From: Phorcus lineatus
Taxonomy: Eukaryota > Mollusca > Gastropoda > Trochida > Trochidae
Reading direction: 5' to 3'
NCBI GenBank assembly: GCA_921293015.1
Contig: OV121096.1
Coordinates: 23,447,729-23,511,728 of the forward strand
DNA length: 64,000 nucleotides
Part shown: one piece after another, positions 7,555 through 36,660 of the stretch
Numbering within the stretch: the stretch's first letter is position 1
Layout of the letters: each line of letters begins with the position of its first letter
Made by a program: the position numbers and the translations under genes
Notes under the pieces: model-generated
Told to the model about the DNA's origin: nothing
Databases searched by the model: none
Seen by the model: only the letters and a program-made list of their open reading frames with translations

Positions 7555-8027
7555 CTATTTCTCGTTAATAATGACTTTACATTGAAACCCGTTTGACAAT
7601 TCTATTTCAGCGTAGAAGTCGGTGAGTTTTTTCTGCAGTTTGACCGGTTTTACGTCAAAATGATCGTTGAGGCTAGTCACTTTAAGTACGTTGTTATTTA
7701 AAACGAGTCTCAAATTAACACGGGATGAATTGGTTATTTTCTTTAAGAATGACGTTCCACTGCGGTAATAATAAGAAACCCGTCTGTACAACGAAAATGA
7801 TCCACGTTCCCGGTTATTCTTTAGGAAAGTGAAATACATTGAATTACTGCTACAACCTGCTTTTGAAGTTAAACTCAGAGTCCACAAGTAGGTTTGGTTA
7901 TTCTGTAAAGCTTGAAGACTTCTCAGTCGACAGTAATCACCGGGAGTTGGTTCGATGATATTTCCATTTCTTCCTGACTGCTTGCATTTGGGTTCCCCTG
8001 GGATAGGTTTGAAAGTCAACTGATTTT
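7555..8027 (-). CDS. Exon 3: terminal, unknown beta-rich domain
   Basis: Acceptor TTCGTTCACAG precedes AAAATCAGTTG. With the last G of exon 2 this makes GAA (Glu102), then an uninterrupted frame of 156 codons and TAG at 7557-7555. It is by far the longest frame with ordinary amino-acid composition on this strand nearby. It contains KCKQSGRNG near the start and FQCKVIINEK at the end. Confidence 0.72.
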
Positions 8028-11000: not shown

Positions 11001-13997
11001 CCCTTTCGCTTGTAGAGTCGGGTCCACATAAAGGTGAACCAGTGAATGAGTTTGTGTTTGTTTGAAATAAGAAGCATCCTGCTACATCAGCGTATTTTAA
11101 TCCGCTGATCGAGCTCCTTCCATATACCCTGATCTCTTTCAAGTAAAACCCCTCGTATCGCTAGCTATCTAACCAGCCAATGAGACGACTCGCATTCAGC
11201 AACAGCGGCACAACCCGGATGGAAAATCCGTTGAGTTAAGGCTAGTAGCTTCATGCGCCTTTATTAACGACATTACATTGGCTGAAAAATAACAGGTGAG
11301 CATAGCCACGAATATCTAGCCGCGCCAGCCGTACGAGGTATTTGGCCCGAAAGAGATCAGGGTATAGGGAAGGAGCTCGATCAGCGGAATCAATTACGCT
11401 GATGTAGCAGGATGAAAAAGAAGCGTGGACCTCTGGTGGTATGAAGTCGACAAAAGATGCAATACCGGCTGGACAAACGTCTTTGGCCACTCCTTTATTT
11501 GGAGGATCGCCTACCTAACTCGCACCTTTAACTCCCAAATTCCAATGAGCTATTTTTATGTTTTCAATGATAAATGAAAACGGTCATATAAATGTTAGGA
11601 CGTCGAAATACTGCGTACATTTTACATGTATATTAGTTTCAAACCTTAATTAATACTACAAGTCCATATTTAAATTTGTGTTTGTGTAATAAGTTTCCAA
11701 AAATTCCGTTTGAGTCATTGACGCGCATCACTGTCCGGTTTTCGATCACAAATCGAGACTTTAACTTGTTTTATTGTCACTATACTTAACACTATTTATG
11801 AAGTTTGGCATATTTGACTGAGTGACTTATGTGGACCTTGTCGAAATGCTTTGCCCAGTTTTCAAGGATCTTTTCCTTGTTCAGGGTCAGTGTGTTCTCA
11901 TTCGAGTTCAAGAACAGAGTTATCCTGACGACGTGGGAACTTGAGGGCACGAAAGGTATACTTCTTAATCTATATTCATTGCAGATAATTGGTTCAACAA
12001 AAAGTTTTCAACATCTAACAGTAAGGACAAATCAAAATGAAATTAAATGCATCCTCATTTATGTTATCCCACGAAGGCTGAATTCATTAAAAACGCTACA
12101 ATTTTTTCTTGTTTAAAATTGTAATGAAAGAATAATTGCAGCATTTTTTTTAAACGTCGTACTGGACAATAAAAATCAAACATTAGTGTGTTTTCTCACT
12201 TGCATATATTTGACTGGGTAAGTTCTTAAATAACGTTTAACGATTGAAATGTAAAGTTTATACAATTAGTTTGTATTCAATTGTTCTGAAAATTGATGAT
12301 AAAGCTCTTTTTGGTTTAAAATCAACCACACTAGTTGTATATACTGTTCCAAAGTGACAGAGAGTATTTTTCGTGGTTTTCAAGTAGCTGAGTAAAGATT
12401 AAAAATACCATATATCTTGAGTTAAGTTCAAATCGTCACTCTAAAATTGCGTCTTTTTTCTTATATGATATTGCTTGTTTTGAATGATGATCGAAAACAG
12501 TCAAATCAATGTCGAAATTATGCGTCCCATTTACAGAAACATTAGTTAAACGATTGACATATATCTTCCAACCCATGTTTGTCTGTTAAATATTTTTCCA
12601 AAATTTCGTTTGAGACAATTGCGTGCGCCACTGTCCGGTTTTCGATCACAATTCACGATTTAAACGTGTTTACTGTTCTTGTACTTGAATGATAAGCAGT
12701 GGGATGCTGATTTTCAGAAACAACCACTACTTCTCGGTAAAAAAAACCCCTCCAATTATAAAGAATAACATTCAAGTAATATATTTTTAATTGTTAAATA
12801 TAGTATGAAAATTCATTTTCCAGTTCTTTCATAATCTTGTCTTCATTAGCAATATTCACACTATTTTTCAAGAACAAAACGTTTAAGATCTTTTGACCAA
12901 AGTAATCATTTACATAGCAACATGAATGAACAACAACTGTCGCAGTGTACGGAATTGTGTTGAAAAATATGTTGTTTTTTTGCTTTCATCAGGGTGTTGG
13001 GGTGTGATAGCGTAGTGGTTAGCGCGTTCGGTTTCGGATCAAGAGGGCCGTTGTTCGAATCCCGCCAGGGGCTCGGCAACTTTTTCTGCAGTAGAGAACT
13101 GTTCTACACGCAGTCAGGTATGGGTGCAATGCTTCACTGAAGTCCAGCGCAGTACCACCCATGGTTCGCTAGTTCAGTCGATGCTCGCATGTTTCACCGC
13201 AATGCATAGCCACAATAGTTGTGGGGGTTTCTCCCTGCAACAGTACCAGCTGCCGTGATATACGTGAATTACTCCTGAAAGTGGCGTTAAACCTAAGTCA
13301 CCTCATCAGGGTGTTGACGGCTTCTTCATGTGCCCGATCGTTTCATCAACGTTCATCTCGTAACCATAATTAAAAACCAGTCAGTGAAATAACTTATTTT
13401 GGCAGTGCCCGGATGACAGGTTCAACGATCTTATACGTGGTCTTTATAGGAAAACCAAGTTTTTTGGATATTGGTCTACTTCTTTATTGCAGTGAAAATC
13501 CCAACGATGATATTAACACAGTCATCAAGCAAGTAACTAGAACCGTTATCGCTTTCTTGATACAAATAAATATCATCTATACCGGAACGTCAATTGATAC
13601 AAAGAAGTTAACTAGCCATAAACATTGGTTTAACTGCAAATCTACAGCTTATTAATTTCACTAAAATATGGTATCCGTGATATAGGTAACAAACCGGAAG
13701 CGATACGAGGCATATGCTTACAAAAATATCAGGGAATTGTATCACTTTCGCAGATGCGTAACCATACAAATGTCTTTCCCTTACCTGCAGGTTACTGGTC
13801 CCAGTGAGGTTGAATCTGAGCGTACAGGTGAGAGACTCTGGGGAGTATTTAACTTCTGTACACCCTCTCTTGTCCGAACATTTCAACTGACAATAATTGT
13901 ACCCTAGATTCAGCCCCAACCTTACTTCGAAGTACTTCTCTTTTACACAGAAACACCGGACTATCAGAAGGGGAGTTAACCATGAAAACACAGCCAT
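7555..13997 (-). CDS. Secreted apple/PAN-like protein with unknown C-terminal domain, three exons
   Basis: Joined coding sequence 13997-13785, 9364-9274, 8027-7555; about 258 residues ending in TAG. The start at 13997-13995 (AACAAGATGG) is chosen over two upstream in-frame ATGs because it has a good Kozak context and directly begins a signal peptide (MAVFSWLTPLLIVRCFC, residues 1-17). Residues 36-58 carry C-x3-C-x5-C-x11-C, the same spacing as the plus-strand lectin gene at 22198, suggesting an apple/PAN-like extracellular module. Exon 2 adds three cysteines (76, 81, 84). Exon 3 (residues 103-258) is rich in alternating hydrophobic residues, has four cysteines (116, 134, 160, 251) and N-glycosylation sequons (NQT, NSS), and no membrane segment; I do not recognise its family. 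Phases agree: 0 at intron 1, 1 at intron 2. Probably a secreted adhesive or immune-type protein; this is inference. A 5' non-coding exon is possible. Confidence 0.72.
8139..8345 (+). repeat. 27 bp minisatellite, about 7.5 copies
   Basis: The unit is ATGACTCATATGGAGGATGAAATAGTT, 27 bp. Because it is a multiple of three it opens frames on both strands (8139-8354 plus, 8336-8088 minus), but these are by-products of the repeat. It lies in intron 2 of the minus-strand gene, about 110 bases upstream of exon 3. Confidence 0.92.
8585..8815 (+). mobile_element. Diverged relative of the MITE at 10153-10402
   Basis: Shares ordered blocks with the complete copy: TTCTCTTCCCATAGAGG, GGGCTTCCGGCAGATTCCCC, CAAAATATTGCAAAAC, ATTTCAGCCAATTGAGA, TGTCACCAAGGCCTATGCAAT and CAGTCC. 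Ends are eroded and boundaries approximate. Confidence 0.45.
8828..9121 (-). mobile_element. MITE family D copy
   Basis: Runs from GACACAGAGAATGTTTCATAAAC to CAACATACTCTGTGCCCCTTTAA. The reverse complement of its right end matches the left end at 36665 (TTAAAGGGGCACAGAGTATG, followed by GTTGTTGG..GTCAAATATGTCA). It carries the GAAACCACTACTTCTCGTTAAAA block also seen at 12730. Intronic in the minus-strand gene. Confidence 0.55.
9274..9364 (-). CDS. Exon 2 (91 bp, cysteine-containing)
   Basis: Acceptor TCTGATTTCAG precedes GATCATCGTC; donor GTGAGA follows ..TTCTATG. The phase-0 entry gives DHRLCVSNFCTECIVLARSK and then a basic stretch; the exit phase is 1. Both phases match the flanking exons, which is the main support for an exon too short to stand out by itself. 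Confidence 0.65.
9477..9905 (-). mobile_element. MITE family D copy interrupted by a SINE head
   Basis: Begins ACAAAGAGTGTGTTTCATAA, matching 12354 (GTGACAGAGAGTATTTTTCG) and 8828. It continues across the 9681-9753 insertion into CATTTTTCATTGTGACAGTTTCCAAAATTACG, which matches 11690 and 12590. The right boundary is uncertain. Confidence 0.5.
9681..9753 (+). mobile_element. tRNA-head-only retroposon (73 bp SINE head)
   Basis: The SINE head alone: GATAGCGCAGTGGTTAGCGC (A box) to GGTTCGAATCC (B box), ending CCCGCGTGTAA with none of the SINE body. Flanked by TACTAGTAATGTG (9668-9680) and TACTAGTTATGTG (9754-9766), a 13 bp duplication with one mismatch. The stems do not fold as a good cloverleaf (the T arm CGTGG/CCCGC mispairs), so I do not call a tRNA gene. 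Confidence 0.75.
10153..10402 (+). mobile_element. 250 bp MITE with ~37 bp TIRs and 8 bp TSD
   Basis: Left TIR (A)CATTCTCTCCCAACAGAG followed by ATAGCTCCGTCATAAATTT; the right end is its near-perfect reverse complement (AAATTTATGACGGAGCTACC, then TCTGTTGGGAGAGAATG). Flanked by an exact 8 bp TTTAACCA at 10145-10152 and 10403-10410. An 8 bp duplication fits hAT-type mobilisation. Related copies lie at 8585-8815 and 24950-25174. In intron 1 of the minus-strand gene. Confidence 0.88.
10690..11060 (-). pseudogene. Non-LTR retrotransposon reverse transcriptase fragment
   Basis: The minus-strand frame from 11027 reads SLLSIARTIL, then QCGFNSGRSTVGMILAA, then a degenerate YTTFVYILRTFDSV. This is the RT order 'xISLLSIAGKIL .. 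QCGFRxGRSTxDMIFAARQ .. LYTTFVDLTKAFDTV' known from metazoan LINE elements. The YTTFV..FD part corresponds to RT motif A with its aspartate-bearing AFD eroded to TFD. A stop follows, then a frameshifted continuation AKFGCPAK. The upstream and downstream domains are absent. 5'-truncated or decayed relic. Confidence 0.75.
11075..11414 (+). mobile_element. 340 bp MITE with ~65 bp TIRs
   Basis: CATCCTGCTACATCAGCGTA and the following 45 bases (to GATCTCTTTC, about 11140) reappear in reverse complement at 11350-11414, ending GCTGATGTAGCAGGATG. Flanks AATAAGAAG (11066-11074) and AAAAAGAAG (11415-11423) look like a 9 bp duplication with one mismatch. A 79-codon minus frame here (11490-11251) spans the element's edge and is not a gene. 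Confidence 0.82.
11540..11800 (-). mobile_element. MITE family D fragment
   Basis: Contains AACGGTCATATAAATGTTAGGACGTC, TTTCCAAAAATTCCGTTTGAG and CACTGTCCGGTTTTCGATCAC, each with counterparts at 9600-9850, 12500-12660 and 36830-36880. Ends not resolved. Confidence 0.5.
11801..12353. other. Intronic, nothing recognised
   Basis: A 95-codon plus frame (11829-12116) has no similarity. The stretch may be further eroded repeat sequence. Confidence 0.3.
12354..12760 (-). mobile_element. MITE family D, near-complete copy
   Basis: Starts GTGACAGAGAGTATTTTTCG and runs through CAAAATTTCGTTTGAG, CCACTGTCCGGTTTTCGATC and AACAACCACTACTTCTCGG. Read in reverse it parallels 36665-36880 block for block. Non-coding. 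Confidence 0.55.
13000..13302 (+). mobile_element. tRNA-derived SINE, full length, copy 4
   Basis: Head GTGATAGCGTAGTGGTTAGCG with an intact B box GTTCGAATCCC, full body, and end GGCGTTAAACC. Flanked by an exact 14 bp duplication TCATCAGGGTGTTG at 12986-12999 and 13303-13316. The perfect duplication suggests it is among the younger insertions here. It is in intron 1 of the minus-strand gene, about 480 bases from exon 1. Confidence 0.94.
13785..13997 (-). CDS. Exon 1: signal peptide and apple-like cysteine module
   Basis: Coding part of exon 1. It ends ..CTGCAG followed by the donor GTAAGG at 13784, intron phase 0. It encodes the hydrophobic leader and the CQLKC..GC..LTC motif (C36, C40, C46, C58). 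Confidence 0.72.
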
Positions 13998-14787: not shown

Positions 14788-16370
14788 GGGGAGACCGGGG
14801 CAGTTTGGGACATGGGGTAGATTAGGACACCATAGATATCTAGTGATTAAAAAGAAGGAGAAAGAAGCTGAAGTGACATCATACATCATGTGACAAATGA
14901 TGCTAATGGCTGAAAATGTGGTGTAGTTCGCTCATTGGAAAGTAGTACTCAAATTTCTATAGTTGGAGGAAAATTTTAGCATCTTAGTAATTATGATCTG
15001 ATGTAAAGATGATTAACAGAACCTAGTTGATACCTATTGTTCTGGAGAGTTCTGTCATTAGGCTAAGTTCTAAGACGTAATAACTTGACATGCTATTTCA
15101 AGTTACCAATATGGAGACATATGACCCTTTTGTTTGTCATCGGGGCAGTTTGGGACAGTGCTAATGGGGCAGATTGGGACAGTGTCTCAATGTGCACCGG
15201 TACATTTTGATATCGTCCCGATGGTCGAATCGTCAGAATCTATCTGAAGCACACACGCTTTGTTTTGTCTACATGAAATACTAAAAATCATAATAAATAA
15301 TAAATGATAATAATAAATTAGAAGTATAAATATCTTCAAAGTGCATTTCAAGGATATACTGATGACTTGGGGCTCCTGCTGGTTCCAGAGGAACTGACCA
15401 CATTACTGGATTAATGACCACAACAGTTTTCAGTGAGTGGCTTGACCACTCTGTTGACCACGCAAAGTGTAGTGTTGACAATAAGGTGCTCCTTCGATCT
15501 GCTCGACAACAACCAGAGCCACTTATCCCCTTGCAGGCAAAACACTAAAGCCTCTTGACAGAATGTGTACAGTCCCTTGAATAAATTCTACAATCAGGAC
15601 GAAGATGCATGGCAGTTAACCCATGCAGTGGTCACAATGACAACCTTTCATGTCGCAGAGTTATTTGGAACATCATATCCCAGGGTATTTACGAATCAGG
15701 ACATTTCTTAAAAAATAATCACTTATATACCCACAGGACTGAAATGTGTTCATTTAAGAGGAACTTCTGAATTATTTTCTTACAAATAGACCAGAAAAAA
15801 CTGCAACTTGGACCTCGAGCTGCAAGTATCCATGATGTCCCACACATGGGCCACCAGAAGCACCCCATATAACAAATGGGACCACCAGATACAAGCACCC
15901 AAGATGCAACCATTGGACCATCAAAAGCACTCAAGATGAACAAATTAGATGATTGCACCACCAGATACAAGCATCAAAGATGAAAACATTGAACCTCAAG
16001 CCAAGAACAATGATTAAAAATTTACCTGATACTTCAACAAGCAATATTCCATTGTTTATGTCACTGTGATGATATTAATTGGAAGTCATTTATTTTTAAT
16101 TATTACTTTCGACAGAAATGTATATCGTCCCAATGTGCCCTGGGTAGTGTCCCAATGTATCCCGGGGTGGGGCAGTTTGGGACAGCATTTTTTACCTTTT
16201 TATATCTCATTTGTACTAAAAGTTTCTTAACATATTTTATTGTCTCTTGTTTTAATATTTTGACCATAAAGGTTGCTTGAAATCTACCAAGTTTCATGTT
16301 GTTTGACTTCATAGATTTAGAACAAACAGGAAAATAAGTTTTTTTTGTCCCAATGTGCCCCGGTCGGCCC
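14788..16370. mobile_element. 1.58 kb TA-flanked non-autonomous element with GGGACA repeats
   Basis: The left end GGGGAGACCGGGGCAGTTTG pairs with the right end (reverse complement GGGCCGACCGGGGCACATTG), each next to TA (14786-14787, 16371-16372). Inside, the motif GGGGCAGTTTGGGACA recurs in both orientations near 15140, 15165, 16128, 16145 and 16170. A short direct repeat CCACCAGATACAAGCA(T/C)C appears near 15890 and 15959. No transposase frame seen. TA duplication and subterminal repeats suggest a Tc1/mariner-pogo-type deletion derivative, but this is inference. Confidence 0.7.
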
Positions 16371-18205: not shown

Positions 18206-19595
18206 TACTCTTCAATTTTTTTCATGATACATACCTGTTATTTAAAGAAAGGCTTGCTCAAAAGTGTAAATTTACCAAAAACAATGGCCCAAAAAGTTTA
18301 CGTTGTGTTCAGGGACGAAAACGAGCGATTCGTCCAAATGCATTGTCTGCCAAAGCACGTGCAGCATGCGATCATGAAGGTTTATATGCAGACACGTCTG
18401 CTTTAGGGGTATAAAACGCCATATCAGCCGCTGTTCATTCTGACTACACAACATCGGTACAGCGACCTGAAGAATGCCAAGACTGAACAGAGCGCAACGC
18501 AACAACGCTATTGGCAGACTGCAAGCAGGAGCGACGCAGCGAGATGTTGCAACACACTTTGGCGTGTCCAGACAGACCATCTTTTCATTGTGGACCAGTT
18601 TCAACACCCGAAACAGTGTTCATGATAGGCCAAGGTCAGGCAGACCAAGGGTGACTACTCGGGCCCAAGATCGGTACATCCGACTGCTCCACCTTCGGGA
18701 ACGCACCAGGACAGCAACGTTAACAACAACGCAGATACCAGGCCTGCAACAGGCAAAGAGAGGCTGGACTTTTTCCACGACGACCGGTTCGACGTCCCGT
18801 TTTAACGCAACGTCATCTGGCGGAACGTCTCCAGTGGTGTCAACAGAGGATGAGATGGGCACGTGCAAGGTAGAGAACCGTTCACTACAGTGATGAGTCC
18901 CGTTTTCTGCTTCGACGAAGTGATGGACGAGCACGTGTATACCGACGTCGTGGAGAACGTTATGCTGCCAACTGTGTTCAGGAGGTTGTCCCATTTGGAG
19001 GTGGGAGTGTCATGGTGTGGGCCAGGATTCGTCACGGTGTTAGGACACCCCTCGTGCATGTTGTGGGTAACCTCACAGGAGTACGGCATAGAGACTAAAT
19101 CCTACAGCCTTACATTATTCCTCACGTCAACGTCCATGGTGGTCTCTTTCAGCAGGACAGTGCTCGACCACATGTTGCACGTGTTTGTCAAGACGTTTTA
19201 CAGCGTAACAATGTCCAGACATTGCCATGGCCAGCCAGGTCACCAGATTTGTCACCAATTGAGCATCTCTTGGACGAACTGGATCGACGCGTGCGCAGGA
19301 GGAATCCAACACCCCAAACACTTCCAGGACTTCTTGCAGCACTTCAGCACGAATGGCAGAACATTCCACAGGCTGTGATTGACAACTTGATTGCATCCAT
19401 GGGTCGTCGGTGCCAAGCAATAATCAATGCCAATGGTGGCCATACCCGATACTGACATTTGTGCACCCCTGTAATGTTGAAACACTTGTGCACCTGTGCA
19501 TTTCAAGATCATGCTTATTTTGAATAAAATTTACTGAACAGAGATCTTAAATTGAACTTTGAAAGTCAGTGTCAAGTTTCTTTTTTTGAAGAGTT
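18206..19595 (+). mobile_element. Tc1-like DNA transposon, 1.39 kb, both ends present
   Basis: The left terminus TACTCTTCAA.. (TA at 18204-18205) and right terminus ..TTGAAGAGTT (TA at 19596-19597) are inverted repeats (tACTCTTCAA / AACTCTTCAA). The interior contains one plus-strand transposase reading, described separately. Length is normal for Tc1 elements. Confidence 0.8.
18474..19454 (+). pseudogene. Tc1 (DD34E) transposase, inactivated
   Basis: Starts at ATGCCAAGACTG with a paired-like helix-turn-helix region (GRLQAGATQRDVATHFGVSR, then QTIFSLW) and a GRPR hook (SGRPRVTTRAQDR). The frame breaks near 18740 and resumes one frame over with RRPVRRPVLTQRHLAERLQW, VHYSDESRF (first D), LFQQDSARPH (second D) and WPARSPDLSPIEHLLDEL (E). 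Exactly 34 residues separate the second D from the E. In-frame stops TAG 18871-18873 and TAA 19096-19098 plus the frameshift abolish function. The C-terminal MGRRCQAIINANGGHTRY is typical of the family. Confidence 0.88.
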
Positions 19596-22197: not shown

Positions 22198-22462
22198 ATG
22201 TTTTGGTTTTGGATTTTACAATTCATGATGATAATCACAAAGCAGCTGATTCTGATATCATTGAATAAGATATACAGTGATATCATGTACATTGACGAAG
22301 AGAAGAGTTTAATACAGTGTGCTTATAACTGTGTGGAAACCGGAAACTGCACCATCTTGTTTTATTTCAAGGCAAAGAAGAAATGTTTGATTTATACGGA
22401 GCATCCAGTAAATGGAAATCTAATCTATTCAGAGGGTTGGGATGTTTACAGACTGAATCAAC
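22198..22462 (+). CDS. Exon 1: leader and apple-like module
   Basis: ATG at 22198; ends ..AATCAAC before the donor GTAAGT at 22463, phase 1. Encodes QCAYNCVETGNC and KKKCLIY, then GWDVYRLNQ, a typical end of a PAN/apple module. Confidence 0.82.
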
Positions 22463-25400
22463 GTAAGTTTATTTTCTTCCTGAACTTGTTAAATATGGAG
22501 AGTATATGTTGTAACTGATGTACTATACAAGATCTCCTTCTTTAAACTTTTTTCGAAATACAAGATTTAAATAAAATTTTAAAAGCAAACTCAATTTTGG
22601 GTATATGAGCATTTATACAAGCTTGAATTTATGTGCTATCGGGTCGAAACGTATACTTTATTCAATATTGCGTCAATACCATTTAAATGACGTTACAAGT
22701 GCAAGTATAGTCATTATCAAATGACATTTAAAGTTCACATATTTGTGTTTTTTTAGTCATATCCAATAGAAAACTATAGTATATATTTGCCTATGTAGTC
22801 AATAGTTTAGTACGTGTATGTGTGCACATATAGTCAAGACCGATTGCAATCTTTAATTCGTTTATGTGTACAATATAGTCAATACCGATAGCAATCTTTG
22901 GTTCGTTTATGTGTGCAAATATAGTCAATACCGATAGCAATCTTTAATTCGTTTATGTGTGCAAATAAAGTCAATACCGATAGCAATCTTTAGTTCGTTT
23001 ATGTGTGCAAGTATAATCAATACCGATAGCAATCTTTGGTACGTTTATGTGTGCAAATATAATCAATACTGATAGCAATCTTTGGTACGTTTATGTGTGC
23101 AAATATAATCAATACTGATAGCAATCTTTGGTACGTTTATGTGTGCAAATATAATCAATACTGATAGCAATCTTTGGTACGTTTATGTGTGCAAATAAAG
23201 TCAATACCGATAGCAATCTTTAGTTCGTTTATGTGTGCAAATATAATCAATACTGATAGCAATCTTTGGTACGTTTATGTGTGCAAATAAAGTCAATACC
23301 GATAGCAATCTTTAGTTCGTTTATGTGTGCAAATATAATCAATACTGATAGCAATCTTTGGTACGTTTATGTGTGCAAATATAATCAATACTGATAGCAA
23401 TCTTTGGTACGTTTATGTGTGCAAATAAAGTCAATACCGATAGCAATCTTTAGTTCGTTCATGTGTGCAAATATAATCAATACTGATAGCAATCTTTGGT
23501 ACGTTTATGTGTGCAAATATAATCAATACTGATAGCAATCTTTGGTACGTTTATGTGTGCAAATATAATCAATACTGATAGCAATCTTTGGTACGTTTAT
23601 GTGTGCAAATATAATCAATACTGATAGCAATCTTTAGTTCGTTTATGTGTGCAAATATAATCAATACTGATAGCAATCTTTGGTACGTTTATGTGTGCAA
23701 ATATAATCAATACTGATAGCAATCTTTGGTACGTTTATGTGTGCAAATATAATCAATACTGATAGCAATCTTTAGTTCGTTTATGTGTGCAAATATATCA
23801 ATACTGATAGCAATCTTTGGTACGTTTATGTGTGCAAATATAATCAATACTGATAGCAATCTTTAGTTCGTTTATGTGTGCAAATATATCAATACTGATA
23901 GCAATCTTTAGTACGTTTATGTGTGCAAATATAATCAATACTGATAGCAATGTTTAGTACGTTTATGTGTGCAAATATATCAATACTGATAGCAATCTTT
24001 AGTTCGTTTATGTGTGCAAATATAATCAATAACGATAGCAATCTTTAGTACGTTTATGTGTGCAAATATAATCAATACTGATAGCAATCTTTAGTACGTT
24101 TATGTGTGCAAATATAATCAATACTGATAGCAATCTTTGGTACGTTTATGTGTGCAAATATAATCAATACTGATAGCAATCGTTAGTACGTTTATGTGTG
24201 CAAATAAAGTCAGTACCAATAGCAAACTTAAGTAGGTTTTATATGCAAATACAATGATTGCCAACAAGAACTAAAGTTATTTATTTTTGCACATATAGTC
24301 AATTTTGGCTTTGAAAAATGAACAATTGTAAGATCTAAGTGTTATGGAAATCTTTAAATTGTTCATCTGATTTTCTGTTTTCGTCATGTTCTATGTTCAG
24401 TTCCAGTTTGTTCCCTGGGTTGGACCATGTTTAGTGATACATGTTACAAGTTATTTAAAGAAGATGTCGCCCAAGAAATCGCACTTGTGAGTGTCAAATA
24501 AGTTATTCGATCAAAGTGATAGTTTCTCCTTTTTTTGCTCTAAAAGAGGAAAGCGTTATCAAATAGGAAATTATATTTAACACCTCCATCCCCATGACCC
24601 ATCACCACAAATTCTTATTTACGATTTTACCCAACAACAGACACATATATGGAAAATGGTTTACATTTGTGTCAAATTTGGTATATTAAAAGGTCATGAA
24701 TTATATTTTCATTTCTCCTAGCAGCATATCATCCAACTTTTCAAGACCCGGTTTTGTTGAAAATATGGAATGGTCCATCTGTTGTTAGATATATTCCGAA
24801 AACCAATCATTTAACATGCTTACATGAAAAACCTACAATATCATAGAAAATATATAAGTAGCATAAAAAGTGTTGCACCCACGTTTCTTGATTTAGAAAT
24901 GTATAACGCTGATTGGATGCAATCAAAGTGAGTTGTGCAATCAGTGAGTCGTCCTTACAGAACACATACGCCTCATTTGCGACAGTATCATTGCTTAGGC
25001 CTTTGTGACAACAAATATGTTATTCATGCATTCGTTGTTTTCATTGACTGCAATATTACCAGATAGTTTAAGTTGCAATATTGCGACGGTAGGGGAAACT
25101 GCCGAGAAACCTTCCTATTTAGACAGAGGCTGTATAGGAATTTATGACGGAGCTACCTCTGTGGGGAGAGAAGGAAAAATGCTATCCAGAAAATTCCATT
25201 GCCAGCAATGAGTCCGGATCTTAGTCTCTTGGAACACGTGTGGCACAATATTCAATGTCGGCATCCTCCTCCACAAAATTTGCATGAATTGGAAGAGGCA
25301 TCACATGTTACAGCAAATGAACTGTTTTCTTGGTATTCACAAACTCCTGGTTAAAATATTCATTCTGTTTTATTCAATCTCTTTCAACAATATAGTGCCA

Positions 25401-28400
25401 TGCTAAAAATATGGAGGTGCAACACTTTTTTGGCTATGTATATGTCGCTAAACATTACAGTTTTTGCAGTGTCACTTTTTTATTGTAGAAGAAATGCCGG
25501 GCACACAAAGCAAGTCTGGTCAATGTCCATTCAGCAACGGAAAACAAGTTTCTTAGGTCTTATCTGGGAGGTACGAATCATTATGGTCACGTGTTCTCGT
25601 GTTAATCAATGTCCAATCATAAGGCCTCTGGCAAAGCCTTTCGACAACAAGTTAGGGGCAAGTAATTCCTGTAAACCATTTGTTCTCATCATCGCCGCTG
25701 TGATTGGTCAGCCAATGACTAGTTTTTGTCTGAAAAGAACATTCGCCTGTTGGGGCTTTCGTCAGACCGCGGACAAAGGAACCACAGAATGAGTTATTAT
25801 CCGGTAGAAGCAACATTTTGAAATGTTTATTTTAATAAGACTTGACACTCTACTGCATTACTTTTATCGCATGTCCCAACATCCATTATTTGAAAATAGA
25901 TTAATTTTTATACGAGGAATATCATCTTGAGCCGAATTTAAGCGATATGCCCACTTCTCATTATACTTTACAAAGTCATGTGACATTTGAATAAACCATA
26001 AACTGCGGTTTAATATATACGCCACTCGTTGGAGGTTACACAAAATGGTGCCTTCTGGTTTGACGAAGGAAGGTTGTGTGAAAGTCTGGACTACTTTAAC
26101 AATGTATCATTGCGCACTGATGAGAACTATCAATACATGCTGTTTTTATAATTACCTATTTTGAAAAATCTTGGATAAGATTAAATATTGATTATTGAGT
26201 TTAAAGTTTCAATATAACAGTTTATTGAAAATATTAATTATATACTTTTCATTATTTTTTCGCGGATCTTATATGGGCGGGGCTTAATAGGGCCTATTAC
26301 ACTGAAGTCAAAAGAGTTGTTTTCCTGTAATTTGATTATCACAGAACTCTTAGAACGTTGGAAGCTCCTTTACTGGTAAATTGACGTGAGCCAATGATTA
26401 TGTAGTGTACTCACGGTTTTCTTAACACTAAAAGAGTTTTTCAAAACTCGACCATGCTAGTCTCTGCGAGATAAATACTAATACTGTTTAGTAAGGCTGC
26501 TCACCATAATAATTGTGCAAATTGTGGTAAAATTACCAATCTTTGTTCAATAACATATTTTTAAAGGTGATTTTTTAAGATAGTGAGACCTTAGAAATAT
26601 ATTTCATCTTCTGTGTATGCGCAACATTTTAATCATACAGATCAAATCTGACATTCTTAGCATAATCCTTGACGCAAACAAATTGGTGAACACTTTAGAG
26701 ATGCTTTTCTGTATGTACAAACATTTTTGTAGCCTTTCTTGCATTTTCATTAAACCAATTCTGAACATGACTTTACTGCTTCCTGGAGATTTGTCCAAAG
26801 GGTCCGTATGTTCCCCCTTCAATTTTTGTCCACCCCAAGTCTGTTGGAGATGGAAGGTCTGGCTGGGCAAAAAGAATCTGGCCCAACACGTGCTCCTTCG
26901 TATGTGGCTCTCTTGATATGCTGTTTAAAGTCAGCTCGTGTAGGAGGGATGCCTAGCAAAGAATTGTTCTTCATGACCAAGTTCTTCTGGTACCACTGAT
27001 TCCGGTATTCTTGCTTGATTAGCATACATCTTCATGACAAACATTTCACTTGTAATGAATGTTTTGTCTGGTATGCAAGCTGGAGCAGATGCTGGTGTCA
27101 GGAGGACTTCGGTAGGATCGGGCACAAAATCAATCTCATTGAAATCAGTCCGAAACTAATCGCTCGTACCTCGCTGCGTTTCTTGATCTGACCACGGCTC
27201 CATAAAAGCCGTGTCAGACGGCCTTGACCGTGACCTTTCACCTCCAATTATTCTAACCAATCACGTGTCCGCATACATATCGGTTGTGTTTGATCAACAA
27301 AGATTGCGGAAAGTTGAAAATAAGGGACGCTCTGAAAAATGTTTTGCAAAAGTTTTGAATAGATAGCATAAGAGATGAACATCATTGTTGTTGCAACTGA
27401 GATCTATCATTTTAATTGTATGATCAGCTTTCTTAATGAAAACATAATTGTCACTTTTGAGATACACATCAGTGGCGGATCCAGGAATTTTGAGTGAAAG
27501 CGAAGGAGCGAGAGGGGGCACCATCTAGGTCATCAATTTTACTGTCGATAATCCCCGGGGGTAGAGGGTCGGGGGTCCGGTGAATCGTCAACCATTATTT
27601 ACCTGCCTCCATTCAGAAAAATACTTAATTTGAAATTTAAAAATTGAAGTGAATTCCTCGAAACCCTTTGACAAAATGATTGTCGACCTAATTTTGATCA
27701 ATAATGTGTCGTAGTTTTGTTTTGGCAAATTTCTTCACTATAACTTTTAAATTTTTTGAAAACGTCTTTTCGACGAAGAAAATGCTAAATCAAACGCAAA
27801 TATTGTCACAATAATACATCTTAATCACCAACTTCCTCGGGTCGCAGACATAGCTAAATTTCCGACCAATTCCGGCGTATTCATCATGAGAGTCAACACA
27901 CCCACGATCATGTTACGTTCATCCCAGCTCGGCTTTTCTCGGGCCCATTCAGGAGAAGCTCGAATCCCGAGATACAAAGGTTACATGTGATGTTTTGAAT
28001 GTCAATTCAACAGTTGTCGAAGTCTTTCCAGCATCGATTCTTATTGGCTGGCACAGTCTGGCGGTCAAGGCCGTCTGACGCGGCTCTTATGGAGCCGTGG
28101 TCAGATCAAGAAACGCAGCGAGGTACGAGCGATTAGTTTCGGGCTGATTTCAATGAGACTGTCACAAAATCCAAGGCTGCCGAAGCAAATGTCTTTCCAC
28201 GTCTTTCAAAGGAAGTCACTATCTCACACCCTGTCAGTGCATTCAACATTGGTAAAGCTCTGGACTTCTCTGATGCCAAGGAGTAAAACAAGTGCTGCCA
28301 AGTAACGAAAGTGCTTGTCTGTTCCAAAGGCTATCCAGAGTTCAGCGTTTGGTTGAAGGATAGCAGGAAATGACGCTGTACCCATATATACGTCTTCTAT

Positions 28401-29014
28401 AAACGCCCTCTCATTGTTTGGATCTTGCAGCGTCCTTTAGACTGTTCGAAAAGTGTCTGTCCCAAAGAAGATCAAGACGTGAAACCTTGTGAAATTTTAC
28501 CTTGACATGAAGAACAAATACCGTTTTGGCATACTCATTGAAGGTTCCTTATTTGAGCATTTGGACAATGACAGCACCGTCTAGAATAACATAGGTGGCT
28601 GGTTGAGCTCCAGATTTGACTTCATTACGTACAGTGAGGCATTTCAATACGTCACACTTCTTACAAACTAATTACTTCCATGTCACTAACATGAATCCAT
28701 TGACATCGAAGCCAATCCGTTTACAAAAGGATAAAATTATTTTGGGATATGTTTTAAGCCATGCTGGATATTTTATATTATAACTTTTATACTGATTTTC
28801 AGATCCTCAAGCTCATTGGCTCGGAGGGAGGTACCACTCAAAGGAAAAGCAATGGAGGTGGACGGACGGGTCGAAGATTTCTCTTGACCTTTGGATAAAG
28901 CATAGACCAATCAACGAGTCGTCGGCAGCATGTATGGTTCAAACCGACCTAAACTGGGTGGACGTCACATGCAGCGAGGAGATACCCTATCTTTGTGAAA
29001 AAGCTCCCGAATAG
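22198..29014 (+). CDS. Secreted apple-like + C-type lectin domain protein, four exons
   Basis: Joined coding sequence 22198-22462, 24401-24486, 25489-25570, 28803-29014: 645 nt, 214 residues, stop TAG. Intron phases 1, 0, 1 agree at every junction. Residues 1-22 are a hydrophobic leader (MFWFWILQFMMIITKQLIL..). Residues 41-63 hold C-x3-C-x5-C-x11-C, the same module as the minus-strand gene. Residues 92-209 form a C-type lectin domain: CSLGWTMFSDTCY (C92, C103), C120, the WIGL position as WLGG (150-153), WRWTDG (162-167), and C188, C201, C209. All six cysteines of the long-form fold are present. The calcium/sugar motifs are atypical: RPIN stands where EPN or QPD is expected, and NWVDV replaces WND, so classical calcium-dependent mannose or galactose binding is doubtful. 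Likely a secreted recognition or adhesion protein; the ligand is unknown. The start could instead be the ATG at 22225. Confidence 0.85.
22810..24235 (+). repeat. 46 bp minisatellite, about 31 copies (intron 1 of the lectin gene)
   Basis: The unit combines GGTACGTTTATGTGTGCAAA with TATAATCAATACTGATAGCA and ATCTTT, 46 bp. Two subtypes occur: AGTTCGTTTATGTG with AATAAAGTCAATACCGATAG, and GGTACGTTTATGTG with AATATAATCAATACTGATAG. They alternate irregularly, with edge units more diverged than central ones. Some late units lack one A (AATATATCAATAC). The array fills most of intron 1 and ends about 170 bases before exon 2. Confidence 0.96.
24401..24486 (+). CDS. Exon 2: start of the C-type lectin domain
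   Basis: Acceptor CTATGTTCAG; the first TT completes the C of exon 1 to CTT (Leu89). Reads PVCSLGWTMFSDTCYKLF and ends GCACTT before the donor GTGAGT, phase 0. The CxxGWxxFxxxCY signature is diagnostic of the domain. Confidence 0.88.
24861..25434 (+). mobile_element. Internally deleted Tc1-like element in intron 2
   Basis: Termini GCATAAAAAGTGTTGCACC (after TA at 24859-24860) and GGTGCAACACTTTTTTGGC (before TA at 25435-25436) are inverted repeats. The right interior keeps the transposase C-terminus in frame from about 25177: KIPLPAMSPDLSLLEHVWHN, matching WPAxSPDLxPIEHxWD, ending at a TAA near 25354. The left part is replaced by a MITE (24950-25174). Dead. Confidence 0.8.
24950..25174 (-). 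mobile_element. MITE (family of 10153-10402) nested in the Tc1 remnant
   Basis: Read in reverse it follows the 10153-10402 copy almost base for base: CCACAGAGGTAGCTCCGTCA, GAAGGTTTCTCGGCAG, GCAATATTGCAACTTAAACT, GTCAATGAAAACAACGAATG, TTGTTGTCACAAAGGCC. The end proximal to 24950 is degraded. Confidence 0.72.
25489..25570 (+). CDS. Exon 3: central lectin-domain exon (82 bp)
   Basis: Acceptor TTTTTTATTGTAG; reads KKCRAHKASLVNVHSATENK then FLRSYLG; donor GTACGA follows ..CTGGGAG, phase 1. It supplies the third cysteine and the 'C..xxaSLVxVxSxxExxFL' helix-2 region of the fold, and links in frame to exons 2 and 4. It begins only 54 bases after a Tc1 remnant. Confidence 0.85.
25590..25790 (-). mobile_element. 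Foldback MITE fragment (family of 20557-20946)
   Basis: Shares GTCCAATCATAAGGCC, GCAAAGCCTTTCGACA, AAGTAATTCCTGTAAACCAT, ATCATCGCCGCTGTGATTGG, CCAATGACTAGTTTTTGTCTG and TTCGTCAGACCG with the interior of 20557-20946. Starts about 20 bases after lectin exon 3. Confidence 0.55.
25800..26600. other. Intronic DNA of the lectin gene, nothing recognised
   Basis: AT-rich stretch of intron 3 without recognised repeats or exons. Confidence 0.35.
26604..28625 (-). pseudogene. Decayed copy of a multicopy invertebrate gene family ('LTGC' motif), interrupted
   Basis: Minus-strand pieces in order: ATYVILDGAVIVQMLK (about 28600), ALPMLNALTGCE with FERRGKTFASAALDFV (28250-28163), then after an inserted element DFVPDPTEVLLTPASAPAC and QHIKRATYEGARVGPDSFCP (27131-26830). 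The order 'DGaAvVxML .. LPxxHALTGCDxxSxFxGkGKk .. LlxHvkRAxYQxxxW' is that of an uncharacterised protein family present in many copies in molluscs, cnidarians and other invertebrates, often thought to be element-borne. Stops, frameshifts and an insertion show it is dead. Identification rests on memory of the motif order. Confidence 0.6.
27131..28162. mobile_element. ~1.03 kb long-TIR element inserted in the pseudogene
   Basis: About 95 bp terminal inverted repeats: CAATCTCATTGAAATCAG.. CGCTCGTACCTCGCTGCG.. CAGACGGCCTTGACCG on the left and the reverse complement on the right (CGGTCAAGGCCGTCTGACGC.. TTCAATGAGACTG). Flanked by the 9 bp CACAAAATC at 27123-27131 and 28163-28171; removing the insert and one copy restores the pseudogene frame (..LDFV|PDPT..). 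The exact end may shift by one base because of overlap with the duplication. The interior has a GTGGCGGATCCAGGAATTTT segment followed by G-rich sequence near 27472. Long TIRs with an 8-9 bp duplication fit MULE or hAT derivatives. Confidence 0.85.
28626..28802. other. Intron 3 end with branch/acceptor region
   Basis: Pyrimidine-rich TTATACTGATTTTCAG immediately precedes lectin exon 4. No repeats seen. Confidence 0.5.
28803..29014 (+). CDS. Exon 4: C-terminal lectin-domain exon and stop
   Basis: Acceptor CTGATTTTCAG. G from exon 3 plus AT gives Asp145, then PQAHWLGGRY, WRWTDG, CMVQ, LNWVDVTC, IPYLCEKAPE and TAG at 29012-29014. Confidence 0.9.
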
Positions 29015-29055
29015 ATGTATTTGTTTCCAAATGATACATGATTTACTTAAACTGT

Positions 29056-29293
29056 CTTTAAAAGGGCAATAGATATCACCTTTTCAAGATAATTGAATTT
29101 ATGTCACGAAAACGACAAAAAATGTTCCAGAATTCAAGACCATGTTTTTAATCATAAGAAGCTGTTTTAAAAAGAATATACCATTATCGATAATATATAT
29201 ATTCTGAAAATAATACGTTTGGTAGAAGCTAATGTTCATTGGGGAAAATTTGAAGAAATAACACTATCAAAGACGTGCTTATGCCCCTTTAAC
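29056..29293 (+). mobile_element. Possible MITE in the lectin 3' flank
   Basis: TTTAAAAGGGCAATAGATATC on the left and GACGTGCTTATGCCCCTTTAA on the right form an imperfect inverted pair. The right end resembles the CGTGCTACTGTCCCCTTTAA end near 380-408. The lectin 3' UTR presumably runs into it; no canonical AATAAA is visible between the stop codon and the minisatellite. Confidence 0.4.
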
Positions 29294-29360
29294 AAGTTTG
29301 TTTTATGAATTTTTTTAACATTTCGAAAACGGAAAAAAGCTGCATTGTCAGCTCGCCTAC

Positions 29361-32300
29361 AATAACTGTGATCTCCTCTCTTACTCCAACTGAGATCTCC
29401 TCTCTTACTCCACCTGAGATCTCCTATCTTACTCCACCTGAGATCTCCTTCCTTACTCCACCTGAGATCTCCTCTCTTACTCCACCTGAGATCGCCTCTC
29501 TTACTCCACCTGAGATCTCCTTCCTTACTCTACTTGAGATCTCCTCTCTTACTCCACCTGAGATCGCCTCTCTTACTCCAGCTGAGATCTCCTCCCTTAC
29601 TCCCTCTGAGATCTCCTCTATTACTCCACCTGAGATCTCCTCTCTTACTCCACCTGAGATCTCCTCTCTTACTCTACTTGAGATCTCCTCTCTTACTCCA
29701 CCTGAGATCGCCTCTCTTACTCAAGCTGAGATCTCCTCCCTTACTCCCTCTGAGATCTCCTCTCTTACTCCACCTGAGATCTCCTCTCTTACTCCACCTG
29801 AGATCTCCTCTCTTACTCCACCTGAGATATTCTCCCTTACTCCCTCTGAGATCTCTTCTCTTACTCCCTCTCAGAGCTCTTCTCTTACTCCACCTGAGAT
29901 ATTCTCCCTTACTCCACCTGAGATATCCTCCTTTACTCCACCTGAGATATTCTCTCCTCTCATACTCCACTTGAGATATCCTCGCTTACTCCACCTGAGA
30001 TCGCCTCTCTTACTCCACCTGAGATCCCCCCCCTTACTCCACCTGAGATATTCTCCCTTACTCCCTCTGAGATCTCTTCTCTTACTCCCTCTCAGAGCTC
30101 TTCTCTTACTCCACCTGAGATATTCTCCCTTACTCCACCTGAGATATCCTCCTTTACTCCACCTGAGATATTCTCTCCTCTCATACTCCACTTGAGATCT
30201 CCTCTCTTACTCCACCTGAGATCTCCTATCTTACTCCACCTGAGATCTCCTCTCTTACTCCACCTGAGATTTCCTCCTTTACTCCACCTGAGATCGCCTC
30301 TCTTACTCCACCTGAGATCTCCTCCCTTACTCCACCTGAGATCTCCTCCCTTACTCCACCTGAGATCTCCTCCCTTACTCCACCTGAGATCTCCTCCCTT
30401 ACTCCACCTGAGATATCCTCCCTTACTCCACCTGAGATCTTCTCTCTTACTCCACCTGATATATCCTCCCTTACTCCACCTGAGATCTCCTCTCTTACTC
30501 CACCTGAGATTTCCTCCCTTACTCCACCTGAGATCTCCTCTCTTACTCCACCTGAGATCGCCTCTCTTACTCCACCTGAGATCTCCTCCCTTACTCCACC
30601 TGAGATCTCCTCTCTTACTCCACCTGAGATTTCCTCCCTTACTCCACCTGAGATCTCCTATCTTACACCACTTGAGATCGCCTCTCTTACTCCACCTGAG
30701 ATTTCCTCCTTTACTCCACCTGAGATCGCCTCTCTTACTCCACCTGAGATTTCCTCTCTTACTCCACCTGAGATCGCCTCTCTTACTCCACCTGAGATCT
30801 CCTCTCTTACTCCACCTGAGATATCCTCCCTAACTCTACCTGAGATTTCCTCTCTTACTCCACCTGAGATCGCCTCTCTTACTCCACCTGAGATCTCCTC
30901 TCTTACTCCACCTGAGATTTCCTCTCTTACTCCACCTGAGATCTCCTATCTTACTCCACCTGAGATCTCCCTTACTCCACCTGAGATCGCCTCTCTTACT
31001 CCACCTGAGATCTCCTCTCTTACTCCACCTGAGATATCCTCCCTAACTCCACCTGAGATCTCCTCTCTTACTCCACCTGAGATCTCCTATCTTACTCCAC
31101 CTGAGATCTCCCTTACTCCACCTGATGTCGCCTCTCTTACTCTAACTGAGATCTCCTCTCTTACTCCACCTGAGATATCCTCCCTAACTCCACCTGAGAT
31201 CTCCTCTCTTACTCCACATGAGATCTCCTCTCTTACTTCACCTGAGATCTCCTCCCTTACTCCACCTGAGATCTCCTCTCTTACTCCACTTGAGATCTCC
31301 TCTCTTACTCCACCTGAGATCGCCTCTCTTACTCCAGCTGAGATCTCCTCCCTTACTCCCTCTGAGATATCCTCCCTTACTCCACTTGAGATCTCCTCTC
31401 TTACTCCACCTGAGATATTCTCCCTTACTCCACCTGAGATATCCTCCTTTACTCCACCTGAGATATCCTCCCTTACTCCACCTGAGATATCCTCTCTTAC
31501 TCCACCTGAGATATCCTCCCTAACTCCACCTGAGATCGCCTCTCTTACTCCAGCTGAGATCTCCTTCCTTACTCCACCTGAGATCTCCTCTCTTACTCCA
31601 CCTGAGATATTCTCCCTTACTCCCTCTAAGATCTCTTCTCTTATTCCCTCTGAGAGCTCTTCTCTTACTCCACCTGAGATATTCTCCCTTACTCCACCTG
31701 AGATATCCTCCTTTACTCCACCTGAGATATTCTCTCCTCTCATACTCCACTTGAGATATCCTCGCTTACTCCACCTGAGATCGCCTCTCTTACTCCACCT
31801 GAGATCTCCTCCCTTACTCCACCTGAGATCTCCTCCCTTACTCCACCTGAGATCCCCCCCCCCCTTACTCCACCTGAGATCTCCTATCTTACTCCACCTG
31901 AGATTTCCTCCTTTACTCCACCTGAGATCGCCTCTCTTACTCCACCTGAGATCTCCTATCTTACTCCACCTGAGATCTCCTCCCTTACTCCTCCTGAGAT
32001 CTCCTATCTTACACCACTTAAGATCGCCTCTCTTACTCCACCTGAGATTTCCTCCTTTACTCCACCTGAGATCGCCTCTCTTACTCCACCTGAGATCTCC
32101 TCCCTTACTCCACCTGAGATCTCTTCCCTTACTCCACCTGAGATCTCCTCCCTTACTCCACCTGAGATCTCCTCCCTTACTCCACCTGAGATCTCCTCTC
32201 TTACTCCACCTGAGATTTCCTCCCTTACTCCACCTGAGATCTCCTCCCTTACTCCACCTGAGATCTCCTCCCTTACTCTACTTGAGATCTCCTCTCTTAC

Positions 32301-35229
32301 TCCACCTGAGATCGCCTCTCTTACTCCAGCTGAGATCTCCTCCCTTACTCCCTCTGAGATCTCCTCTCTTACTCCCTCTGAGATCTCCTCTCTTACTCCA
32401 CCTGAGATATTCTCCCTTACTCCACCTGAGATCTCCTCTCTTACTCCACCGGAGATTTCCTCCCTTACTCCACCTGAGATCTCCTCTCTTACTCCACCGG
32501 AGATTTCCTCCATTACTCCACCTGAGATTTCCTCCCTTACTCCACCTGAGATCTCCTCTCTTACTCCACCTGAGATTTCCTCCCTTACTCCACCTGAGAT
32601 CTCCTCTCTTACTCCACCTGAGATCTCCTCTCTTACTCCACTTGAGATCTCCTCTCTTACTCCACCTGAGATCGCCTCTCTTACTCCAGCTGAGATCTCC
32701 TTCCTTACTCCACCTGAGATCTCCTCTCTTACTCCACCTGAGATATTCTCCCTTACTCCCTCTAAGATCTCTTCTCTTATTCCCTCTGAGAGCTCTTCTC
32801 TTACTCCACCTGAGATATTCTCCCTTACTCCACCTGAGATATCCTCCTTTACTCCACCTGAGATATTCTCTCCTCTCATACTCCACTTGAGATATCCTCG
32901 CTTACTCCACCTGAGATCGCCTCTCTTACTCCACCTGAGATCTCCTCCCTTACTCCACCTGAGATCTCCTCCCTTACTCCACCTGAGATCCCCCCCCCCC
33001 TTACTCCACCTGAGATCTCCTATCTTACTCCACCTGAGATTTCCTCCTTTACTCCACCTGAGATCGCCTCTCTTACTCCACCTGAGATCTCCTATCTTAC
33101 TCCACCTGAGATCTCCTCCCTTACTCCTCCTGAGATCTCCTATCTTACACCACTTAAGATCGCCTCTCTTACTCCACCTGAGATTTCCTCCTTTACTCCA
33201 CCTGAGATCGCCTCTCTTACTCCACCTGAGATCTCCTCCCTTACTCCACCTGAGATCTCTTCCCTTACTCCACCTGAGATCTCCTCCCTTACTCCACCTG
33301 AGATCTCCTCCCTTACTCCACCTGAGATCTCCTCTCTTACTCCACCTGAGATTTCCTCCCTTACTCCACCTGAGATCTCCTCCCTTACTCCACCTGAGAT
33401 CTCCTCCCTTACTCCACCTGAGATCCCCCCCCCCCCCCCTTACTCCACCTGAGATCTCCTCCCTTACTCCACCTGAGATCTCTTCCCTTACTCCACCTGA
33501 GATCTCCTCCCTTACTCCACCTGAGATCTCCTCCCTTACTCCACCTGAGATCTCCTCTCTTACTCCACCTGAGATTTCCTCCCTTACTCCACCTGAGATC
33601 TCCTCCCTTACTCCACCTGAGATCTCCTCCCTTACTCCACCTGAGATCCCCCCCCCCCCTTACTCCACCTGAGATCTCCTCTCTTACTCCACCTGAGATA
33701 TCCTCCCTAACTCCACCTGAGATCTCCTCTCTTACTCCACCTGAGATCTCCTATCTTACTCCACCTGAGATCTCCCTTACTCCACCTGATGTCGCCTCTC
33801 TTACTCTAACTGAGATCTCCTCTCTTACTCCACCTGAGATATCCTCCCTAACTCCACCTGAGATCTCCTCTCTTACTCCACCTGAGATCGCCTCTCTTAC
33901 TCCACTTGAGATCTCCTCTCTTACTCCACCTGAGATCGCCTCTCTTACTCCAGCTGAGATCTCCTTCCTTACTCCACCTGAGATCTCCTCTCTTACTCCA
34001 CCTGAGATATTCTCCCTTACTCCCTCTAAGATCTCTTCTCTTATTCCCTCTGAGAGCTCTTCTCTTACTCCACCTGAGATATTCTCCCTTACTCCACCTG
34101 AGATATCCTCCTTTACTCCACCTGAGATATTCTCTCCTCTCATACTCCACTTGAGATATCCTCGCTTACTCCACCTGAGATCGCCTCTCTTACTCCACCT
34201 GAGATCTCCTCCCTTACTCCACCTGAGATCTCCTCCCTTACTCCACCTGAGATTTCCTCCCTTACTCCACCTGAGATCTCCTATCTTACACCACTTGAGA
34301 TCGCCTCTCTTACTCCACCTGAGATTTCCTCCTTTACTCCACCTGAGATCGCCTCTCTTACTCCACCTGAGATTTCCTCTCTTACTCCACCTGAGATCGC
34401 CTCTCTTACTCCACCTGAGATCTCCTCTCTTACTCCACCTGAGATATCCTCCCTAACTCTACCTGAGATTTCCTCTCTTACTCCACCTGAGATCGCCTCT
34501 CTTACTCCACCTGAGATCTCCTCTCTTACTCCACCTGAGATTTCCTCTCTTACTCCACCTGAGATCTCCTATCTTACTCCACCTGAGATCTCCCTTACTC
34601 CACCTGAGATCGCCTCTCTTACTCCACCTGAGATCTCCTCTCTTACTCCACCTGAGATATCCTCCCTAACTCCACCTGAGATCTCCTCTCTTACTCCACC
34701 TGAGATCTCCTATCTTACTCCACCTGAGATCTCCCTTACTCCACCTGATGTCGCCTCTCTTACTCTAACTGAGATCTCCTCTCTTACTCCACCTGAGATA
34801 TCCTCCCTAACTCCACCTGAGATCTCCTCTCTTACTCCACATGAGATCTCCTCTCTTACTTCACCTGAGATCTCCTCCCTTACTCCACCTGAGATCTCCT
34901 CTCTTACTCCACCTGAGATCTCCTCCCTGACTCCACCTGAGATCTCCTCTCTTACTCCACCTGAGATCTCCTCTCTTACTCCACCTGAGATATCCTCCCT
35001 AACTCCACCTGAGATCTCCTCTCTTACTCCACCTGAGATCTCCTCTCTTACTCCACCTGAGATATCCTCCCTTACTCCACCTGAGATATCCTCCCTTACT
35101 CCACCTGAGACCCTCTTACTCCACCTGAGATATCCTCCCTTACTCCACCTGAGATCTCTCTTACTCCACCTGAGATATCCTCCCTTACTCCACCTGAGAT
35201 CGCCTCTCTTACTCCACCTATGATTTCCT
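29361..35229 (+). repeat. Giant 24 bp minisatellite, about 240 copies, with higher-order structure
   Basis: The unit is GAGATCTCCTCTCTTACTCC followed by ACCT, 24 bp, with variants GATATCCTCC, GATCGCC, GATTTCC, CCCTCT and CAGCT. The frame-neutral unit translates as EISSLTPP repeats and keeps frames open on both strands. Length-variant units (29 bp GAGATATTCTCTCCTCTCAT.., 21 bp GAGATCTCCCTTACTCC..) break them. Higher-order copies are visible: the 29 bp variant recurs at 29944, 30165, 31724, 32860 and 34124. About 535 bp from 31741 is almost identical to that from 32877 (1136 bp apart). C-runs of 9-15 replace CTCCTCC at about 31854, 32991, 33425 and 33649. Confidence 0.97.
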
Positions 35230-36660
35230 TTAAATCATAAACTGTTCTCTCCAGATCCTTTGAACTTATGAATTCATTACCAACTAAACTCAGAGAAGCG
35301 CCATCTATTTTTAGGGTGGGAAATTTCTCCCGCTTACAACAGAGACAGCTATTTTGACTTGACCGATTTAACAAATTTTAAGTTCGGATAGTTGGATGAA
35401 GTAATGTTCGATCCCCTAAGAAGCTTTAAATTTTGCAAAAACTGATGTTTGTAATTGAAAATTTGAAGAAATATTTTTGAAAAAAGTGGTATAGTACCTT
35501 TAAAACAAACCGGTTTTGAGTTTGCGATATGAATCGATTTATGTGAATATACTTTGAATTCTTGTCAGGTTGTGAGAGGTTTTCGTGACTTTCATGGGGT
35601 TAAAGGCACTATCCAACTTTCCCCGCAAAGCATAAGTCGCGCCAGGCCCAACCACTAGCTATTTCAAGTCTTGCAGGTTACCGCGTAAATCGTTGCTTGA
35701 GTGAATCTTCCGTCTCGTTGATAAGTTGCAATCTTCATAAACCTCTGAAAGGGCTATCAAGCTTAACCGGAGTACACCTGGAAGCAGGCACAAACAAGTG
35801 AGGAGAACGTTGTAAGGCTTTAAATTAGCCAGAGATTTGGACTGGCGCCATTAATTCCCTGCAAGAGAAATTGAGAACGTGAATGTGATGTGAATTGTAA
35901 ATCTAACCTTGGTTATTTTTATATTGTAGCCTCTTTTACAGCGGTACTCGTGGAAGTTAGCAGTTTGTAAACGAAACAGATTATTTTATAGTGAAGGGTT
36001 TCGATCAAATCTGAAGTTACCTTAAACCGTCCACTGTGTTTGCATGCATCGGAAGTATTATAAGGAGCATATTTTCTATGGAAATTTATTATTAAAAGAT
36101 GTAGCAGGTCATTAAATACTATAATTAACCTGTGATTAAATGTAGGTTAGAAACATTGTAAAAGTTTCAAAGAATGTTTGCTATCTGATTTGACAAAACT
36201 AGTTTCAGCTTTTAGAATGACGAGGGTTCTCATTTTTCAAAATTAAAATCTGTAATCGAATACACTTTTCTTATTCTTATTTATATCTTAATTTTATGAT
36301 TTTGCATTGACATTTTTGGTGTATGTATATTTGAAATAGAAAGAGAATTTCAATAGCTTTTGTCTCTTTTTTTTAATGAACAGATAAGAAATTGTCAACA
36401 AGAACAGGGACAATCTATGGTATGCAGATAAGATAATCCAATCCCTATCTCATTGAAATTAGATCAACTTATCACTCTTGATTCAATGATTTTTTTAACA
36501 GATACGCACCGAGGTAAGAATGATTAGTTGGATCGTTTTTTCAATGAGATTTATATCACCTATTGATAATCATTTTGAAAATGCCAGTATTTTGGCCACT
36601 TAGCCTACAGCAGGCCTACGATTACAAGTTAGAATTATATGTATTACGGTCAAGTGTTCA
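35230..36660. other. Intergenic, nothing recognised
   Basis: The 92-codon minus frame 35374-35096 runs out of unique sequence into the minisatellite and is not a gene. The rest is AT-rich without identified elements. Confidence 0.35.

Follow-up and report, generated by a model that had tools for sequence, protein, structure and literature searches.

Organization of the locus

The window analyzed here, a 64,000-nucleotide stretch of the genome of the gastropod Phorcus lineatus, contains on its plus strand a gene of four exons (Table 1) whose lengths (265, 86, 82, and 212 nt) sum to 645 nt, a multiple of three. The spliced frame encodes 214 residues and closes with a single TAG, with no internal stop, and introns 1 to 3 all have GT-AG boundaries. 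In exon positions, exon lengths, intron boundaries, and the 214-residue join, the model agrees fully with a preliminary description of this DNA. Scored against MAG/GTRAGT, the 5' splice sites match at 8/9 positions for intron 1, 7/9 for intron 2, and 6/9 for intron 3, while 12 of the 17 bases preceding the last three are pyrimidines at each 3' splice site. When the joined frame was scrambled by a simple mononucleotide shuffle, none of 20,000 copies was free of stops.

The ends of the model allow some variation. The acceptor of exon 2 is a tandem one (TTCAG, TTCCAG), with a second AG 6 nt downstream and a possible exon start at 24407, use of which would remove two linker residues and keep the frame. 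Exon 1 has four in-frame ATGs (22198, 22225, 22228, and 22285), leaving the choice of start codon uncertain; initiation at 22285 would lose the hydrophobic N-terminus. Upstream, the exon 1 frame is open as far as 22138. Between 22133 and 22193 there are six AGs, of which five would keep the frame open, and there may be an additional 5' exon upstream of exon 1.

Repeats and mobile elements are frequent in and around the gene. A stretch 81% identical to the inverted-repeat element of intron 2 occurs at 10156–10365, and a 68-codon piece within this element resembles, by its motif, the end of a Tc1-type transposase. A weaker match to an arm of the intron 3 element was found by blastn at 36500–36551 (54 bp, 78%). 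The two 4-kb segments that contain the 24-bp satellite beyond the gene show very strong strand asymmetry (GC skew -0.44 and -0.53), and on both strands the satellite stays open in several frames. Elsewhere in the window, transposase-like frames at 18471–18893 and 19099–19455 gave best scores below the Pfam cut-offs (HTH_28, 24.3 of 25 bits; DDE_3, 25.4 of 28.6 bits), and a plus-strand frame at 40892–41284, which resembles the terminal part of a LINE-type reverse transcriptase, matched ALKBH8_N at 49.7 bits (cut-off 21). A tRNA search of the window found none.

Table 1. Exons, introns, and repeats of the PAN/lectin gene and its surroundings (positions are those of the window)
Feature	Position	Strand	Description
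Exon 1	22198–22462	+	265 nt, phase 1 at end; hydrophobic N-terminus and PAN_1 module with four cysteines; donor AAC/GTAAGT (8/9)
Intron 1	22463–24400	+	GT-AG; mostly 46-bp minisatellite
46-bp minisatellite	22806–24255		Intron 1; 31.6 copies (Tandem Repeats Finder)
Exon 2	24401–24486	+	86 nt; lectin domain begins, PVCSLGWTMFSDTCYKLF, long-form cysteine pair
Intron 2	24487–25488	+	Contains terminal-inverted-repeat element
Terminal-inverted-repeat element	24852–25443		Intron 2; 28-bp arms, 86% complementary
Exon 3	25489–25570	+	82 nt; first helix region, KKCRAHKASLVNVHSATENKFLRSYLG
Intron 3	25571–28802	+	Contains element with 100-bp terminal inverted repeats
Terminal-inverted-repeat element	27131–28161		Intron 3; 100-bp arms, 96% complementary
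Exon 4	28803–29014	+	212 nt; WLGG at the core, HRPINESSAAC in the altered long loop, then NWVDVTC, the final cysteines, and TAG
24-bp satellite	29366–35219		243 copies (Tandem Repeats Finder)

Domain composition of the predicted protein

Both modules named in the preliminary description, an apple-like (PAN) module and a six-cysteine, long-form lectin fold, were recovered by profile searches. The Pfam profile PAN_1 (PF00024; cut-off 21.4 bits) matched residues 36–86 of the joined protein at 21.8 bits, a margin of 0.4 bits, and exon 1 alone at 23.8 bits; the match of exon 1 covers profile positions 20–74 of 76, with the first 20 or so missing. PAN_2 scored 14.2 bits in the joined protein, under its cut-off of 21.1. 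The PAN core consists of four cysteines (41, 45, 51, and 63) spaced CX3CX5CX11C, and the lectin domain supplies the other six of the ten in the 214-residue protein. Ahead of this core, the N-terminus has a best 11-residue mean hydropathy of 1.96 with a lysine inside and, with hydropathy as the only measure, is a probable signal peptide of a non-classical kind, in which the lysine breaks the hydrophobic stretch.

The lectin domain was recognized more strongly. Lectin_C (PF00059; cut-off 22.6 bits) matched residues 114–211 of the joined protein at 61.5 bits (E 1.5e-16) and the joined 125-residue lectin part at 63.0 bits. Exon 4 alone scored 36.2 bits (E 1.1e-8), so that the evidence for a lectin domain is independent of the exon joins; exon 3 alone reached 18.5 bits (E 0.0035), under the cut-off, and exon 2 alone gave no Lectin_C match. 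All six lectin cysteines were located (92, 103, 120, 188, 201, and 209), comprising the four core cysteines and the two N-terminal ones of the long form. The WIGL core position reads WLGG, retaining the tryptophan and glycine and not the final leucine. Two further Pfam matches, UL45 (20 of 27 bits) and A33R (13.6 of 22.5 bits), fell below their cut-offs and are read as reflecting the common lectin fold. A sequence search of the PDB returned 189 distinct matches at E <=0.001; LY75 was the best among the 60 of these that were listed (9.7e-37 summed over its repeated domains, with a best single stretch at i-E 1.4e-7), and aggrecan matched in one stretch at 8.2e-13. N-glycosylation sequons occur at two sites, residues 50 and 182.

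Alteration of the calcium site

In canonical lectins, the site-2 ligands lie in EPN or QPD, in the glutamate before the cysteine, which ED precedes, and in WND; mannose-binding protein has five such ligands. In a register taken from an alignment with MRC1, the present protein has RPI in place of E/Q-P-N/D, AAC in place of EDC, and WVD in place of WND, bearing out the earlier observation that the canonical sugar-site motifs are replaced. One of the five ligands of mannose-binding protein, the last aspartate, is retained. Judged from these residues, the protein lies outside the Ca2+-dependent sugar-binding class as defined by its site-2 ligands, and since only the last aspartate remains, canonical Ca2+ and sugar binding by the lectin domain is unlikely. 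A changed site 2 is no proof against sugar binding. As set out in the available part of a review of bivalve lectins, CgCLec-3 is a Ca2+-dependent lectin without a coordinating motif, and RPD/KPD lectins bind N-acetyl sugars with Ca2+ not strictly needed (PMC12842671). The earlier suggestion that the ligand is perhaps not a Ca2+-bound sugar is a fair one, to be tempered by such bivalve lectins, which despite altered motifs can be Ca2+-dependent or bind sugars (PMC12842671).

Joining of the PAN and lectin exons

The gene model is weakest where exon 1 meets exon 2. Two genes could be present, with exon 1 being all or part of a separate PAN gene and lectin exons 2–4 served by another first exon, upstream or unseen. 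Phase, strand, and position are the only basis on which PAN and lectin are joined, the exon 1 frame read unspliced continues to a stop at 22518, and near a second PAN-like exon on the minus strand (13785–13997) neither a motif scan nor tblastn found a lectin exon, so that unpaired PAN exons may exist in this region. Such a division is nevertheless improbable. The PAN match ends at the end of exon 1 (profile position 74 of 76), with an 8/9 donor in the phase required by exon 2, and intron 1 offers no good rival. When first-exon candidates were defined as running from an ATG to a GTA or GTG donor, at least 45 nt long and ending in phase 1, the plus strand of the window yielded 260; a donor of at least 8/9 and a hydropathy of at least 1.9 (over 11 residues near the start) were combined in two, both of them exon 1 itself, from ATG 22198 and ATG 22225. 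The same rule gave seven rivals within intron 1, with donors all below 7/9, and the four listed of these seven have donors of 3/9 and lie inside the minisatellite. The case for joining exons 1 and 2 consists of their phase and strand, the quality of the donor, and the fact that intron 1 contains no convincing alternative first exon.

A further and very improbable reading is that the gene is a pseudogene or unexpressed copy, intact by chance. In its favor, every intron contains a repeat array or inverted-repeat element (about three-quarters of intron 1, three-fifths of intron 2, and one-third of intron 3), the 5.9-kb satellite starts 352 bases past the stop, and the 386 nt after the stop (29015–29400) have no AATAAA and, of eight poly(A)-signal hexamers tried, only AATATA (29175 and 29192). 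Against it, the 645 nt are free of stops and frame shifts and the splice dinucleotides are all canonical.

We consider it likely that this is a functional animal gene whose product has 214 residues or a few less and consists of a probable signal peptide, a PAN core with four cysteines, and a single C-type-lectin-like domain of the long form, in which the canonical Ca2+ site is missing. We infer that transcripts use these junctions and that the protein is probably secreted. Judged from the families of its two modules, the protein would most likely act in extracellular recognition or adhesion, its lectin fold binding either a protein or, with no canonical coordination of Ca2+, a glycan, while a second contact would come from the PAN module. 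Both domains and their pairing are of known kinds, and the gene is an ordinary one, correctly called. Its value is mainly that of a worked case: short exons of matching phase (82 and 86 nt), set among repeat-bearing introns, are easily overlooked, yet domain evidence recovers the gene.

A more speculative and rather doubtful extension makes the gene one of a local family of secreted proteins that begin with PAN, with one PAN type joined to different C-terminal domains, in this case a lectin fold whose Ca2+ site has been lost and whose partner is a protein. Searching the window by tblastn with the 214 residues gave nothing below E 0.8 except the four exons themselves, and patterns for the lectin-domain ends occur once each, in exon 2 and in exon 4. 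Three places match the pattern of four PAN cysteines: exon 1, 13734–13910 (minus strand), and 15725–15892 (minus strand), the last of which has other spacing and was judged by eye to be a chance match. The minus-strand stretch at 13785–13997 encodes a hydrophobic beginning followed by four cysteines at the CX3CX5CX11C spacing of exon 1, to which it is 23% identical. It scored below the PAN_1 cut-off of 21.4 both as 13758–13997 (19.5 bits) and as a longer frame (17.1 bits), and exons downstream of it were not found. Also on the minus strand, 7555–8046 is a 163-codon open frame with several cysteines, no Pfam match, and an acceptor-like TTCACAG ending at 8028, possibly the terminal exon of a gene for a secreted protein. 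A direct join of 13785–13997 to 7555–8027 is out of phase and has many stops.

Comparison with known lectins

Among the best sequence matches to the present protein are the C-type-lectin-like domains (CTLDs) of LY75 and Ly49, for which structures have been solved. Both of these lectin folds are Ca2+-independent. They belong to vertebrate receptors of other layout, and their similarity to the present protein is only distant.

The preliminary description regarded the combination of PAN and lectin modules as uncommon, which is partly right and overstated. As tabulated in the available part of a nematode survey, CTLD with CW (PAN-3) is a described arrangement, class IV, comprising 16 C. elegans proteins with 1–2 CTLDs and 1–2 CW domains, yet the remaining six nematodes of its table have none (PMC5297725). 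The same survey, of 2017, acknowledges earlier finds of CTLD with PAN (PMC5297725). Class IV proteins resemble the present one in module content, having a C-type-lectin-like domain and a PAN-type module together; they carry CW/PAN-3, whereas the present protein has PAN_1 above cut-off. Literature searches found nothing on a C-type lectin with a PAN domain in a mollusc or, under those names, on a CTLD with a PAN domain in a nematode. Judging by titles, papers naming PAN_1 with Lectin_C concern an apicomplexan and plants, and those naming the PAN domain with C-type lectins concern mostly plant receptor kinases and parasites. PAN is not mentioned in the available parts of the bivalve lectin review (PMC12842671), a survey of metazoan lectins (PMC10140915), or a rotifer paper (PMC8878817).

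The metazoan survey, in the portion available, describes domain arrangements as lineage-specific; in most gastropods it counts over 100 CTL genes, and in bivalves about 200, with up to 300–500 in many of these (PMC10140915). The present gene would add one further protein with PAN and lectin domains, its calcium site lost, to the large and fast-changing lectin families of invertebrates. The review mentioned above tabulates many bivalve lectins whose motifs are altered, RPD and WVD among them, and RPI has no row among the tabulated lectins examined (PMC12842671). SPL-1, with RPD and KPD chains and WND, has in its RPD chain the same substitution of arginine for E/Q as the present protein, and in VpClec-4 (QPN/WVD) WVD likewise replaces WND (PMC12842671). 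Unlike the altered-motif bivalve lectins in the available part of that review, the present protein has also lost the third position (to isoleucine) and both acidic residues before the cysteine.
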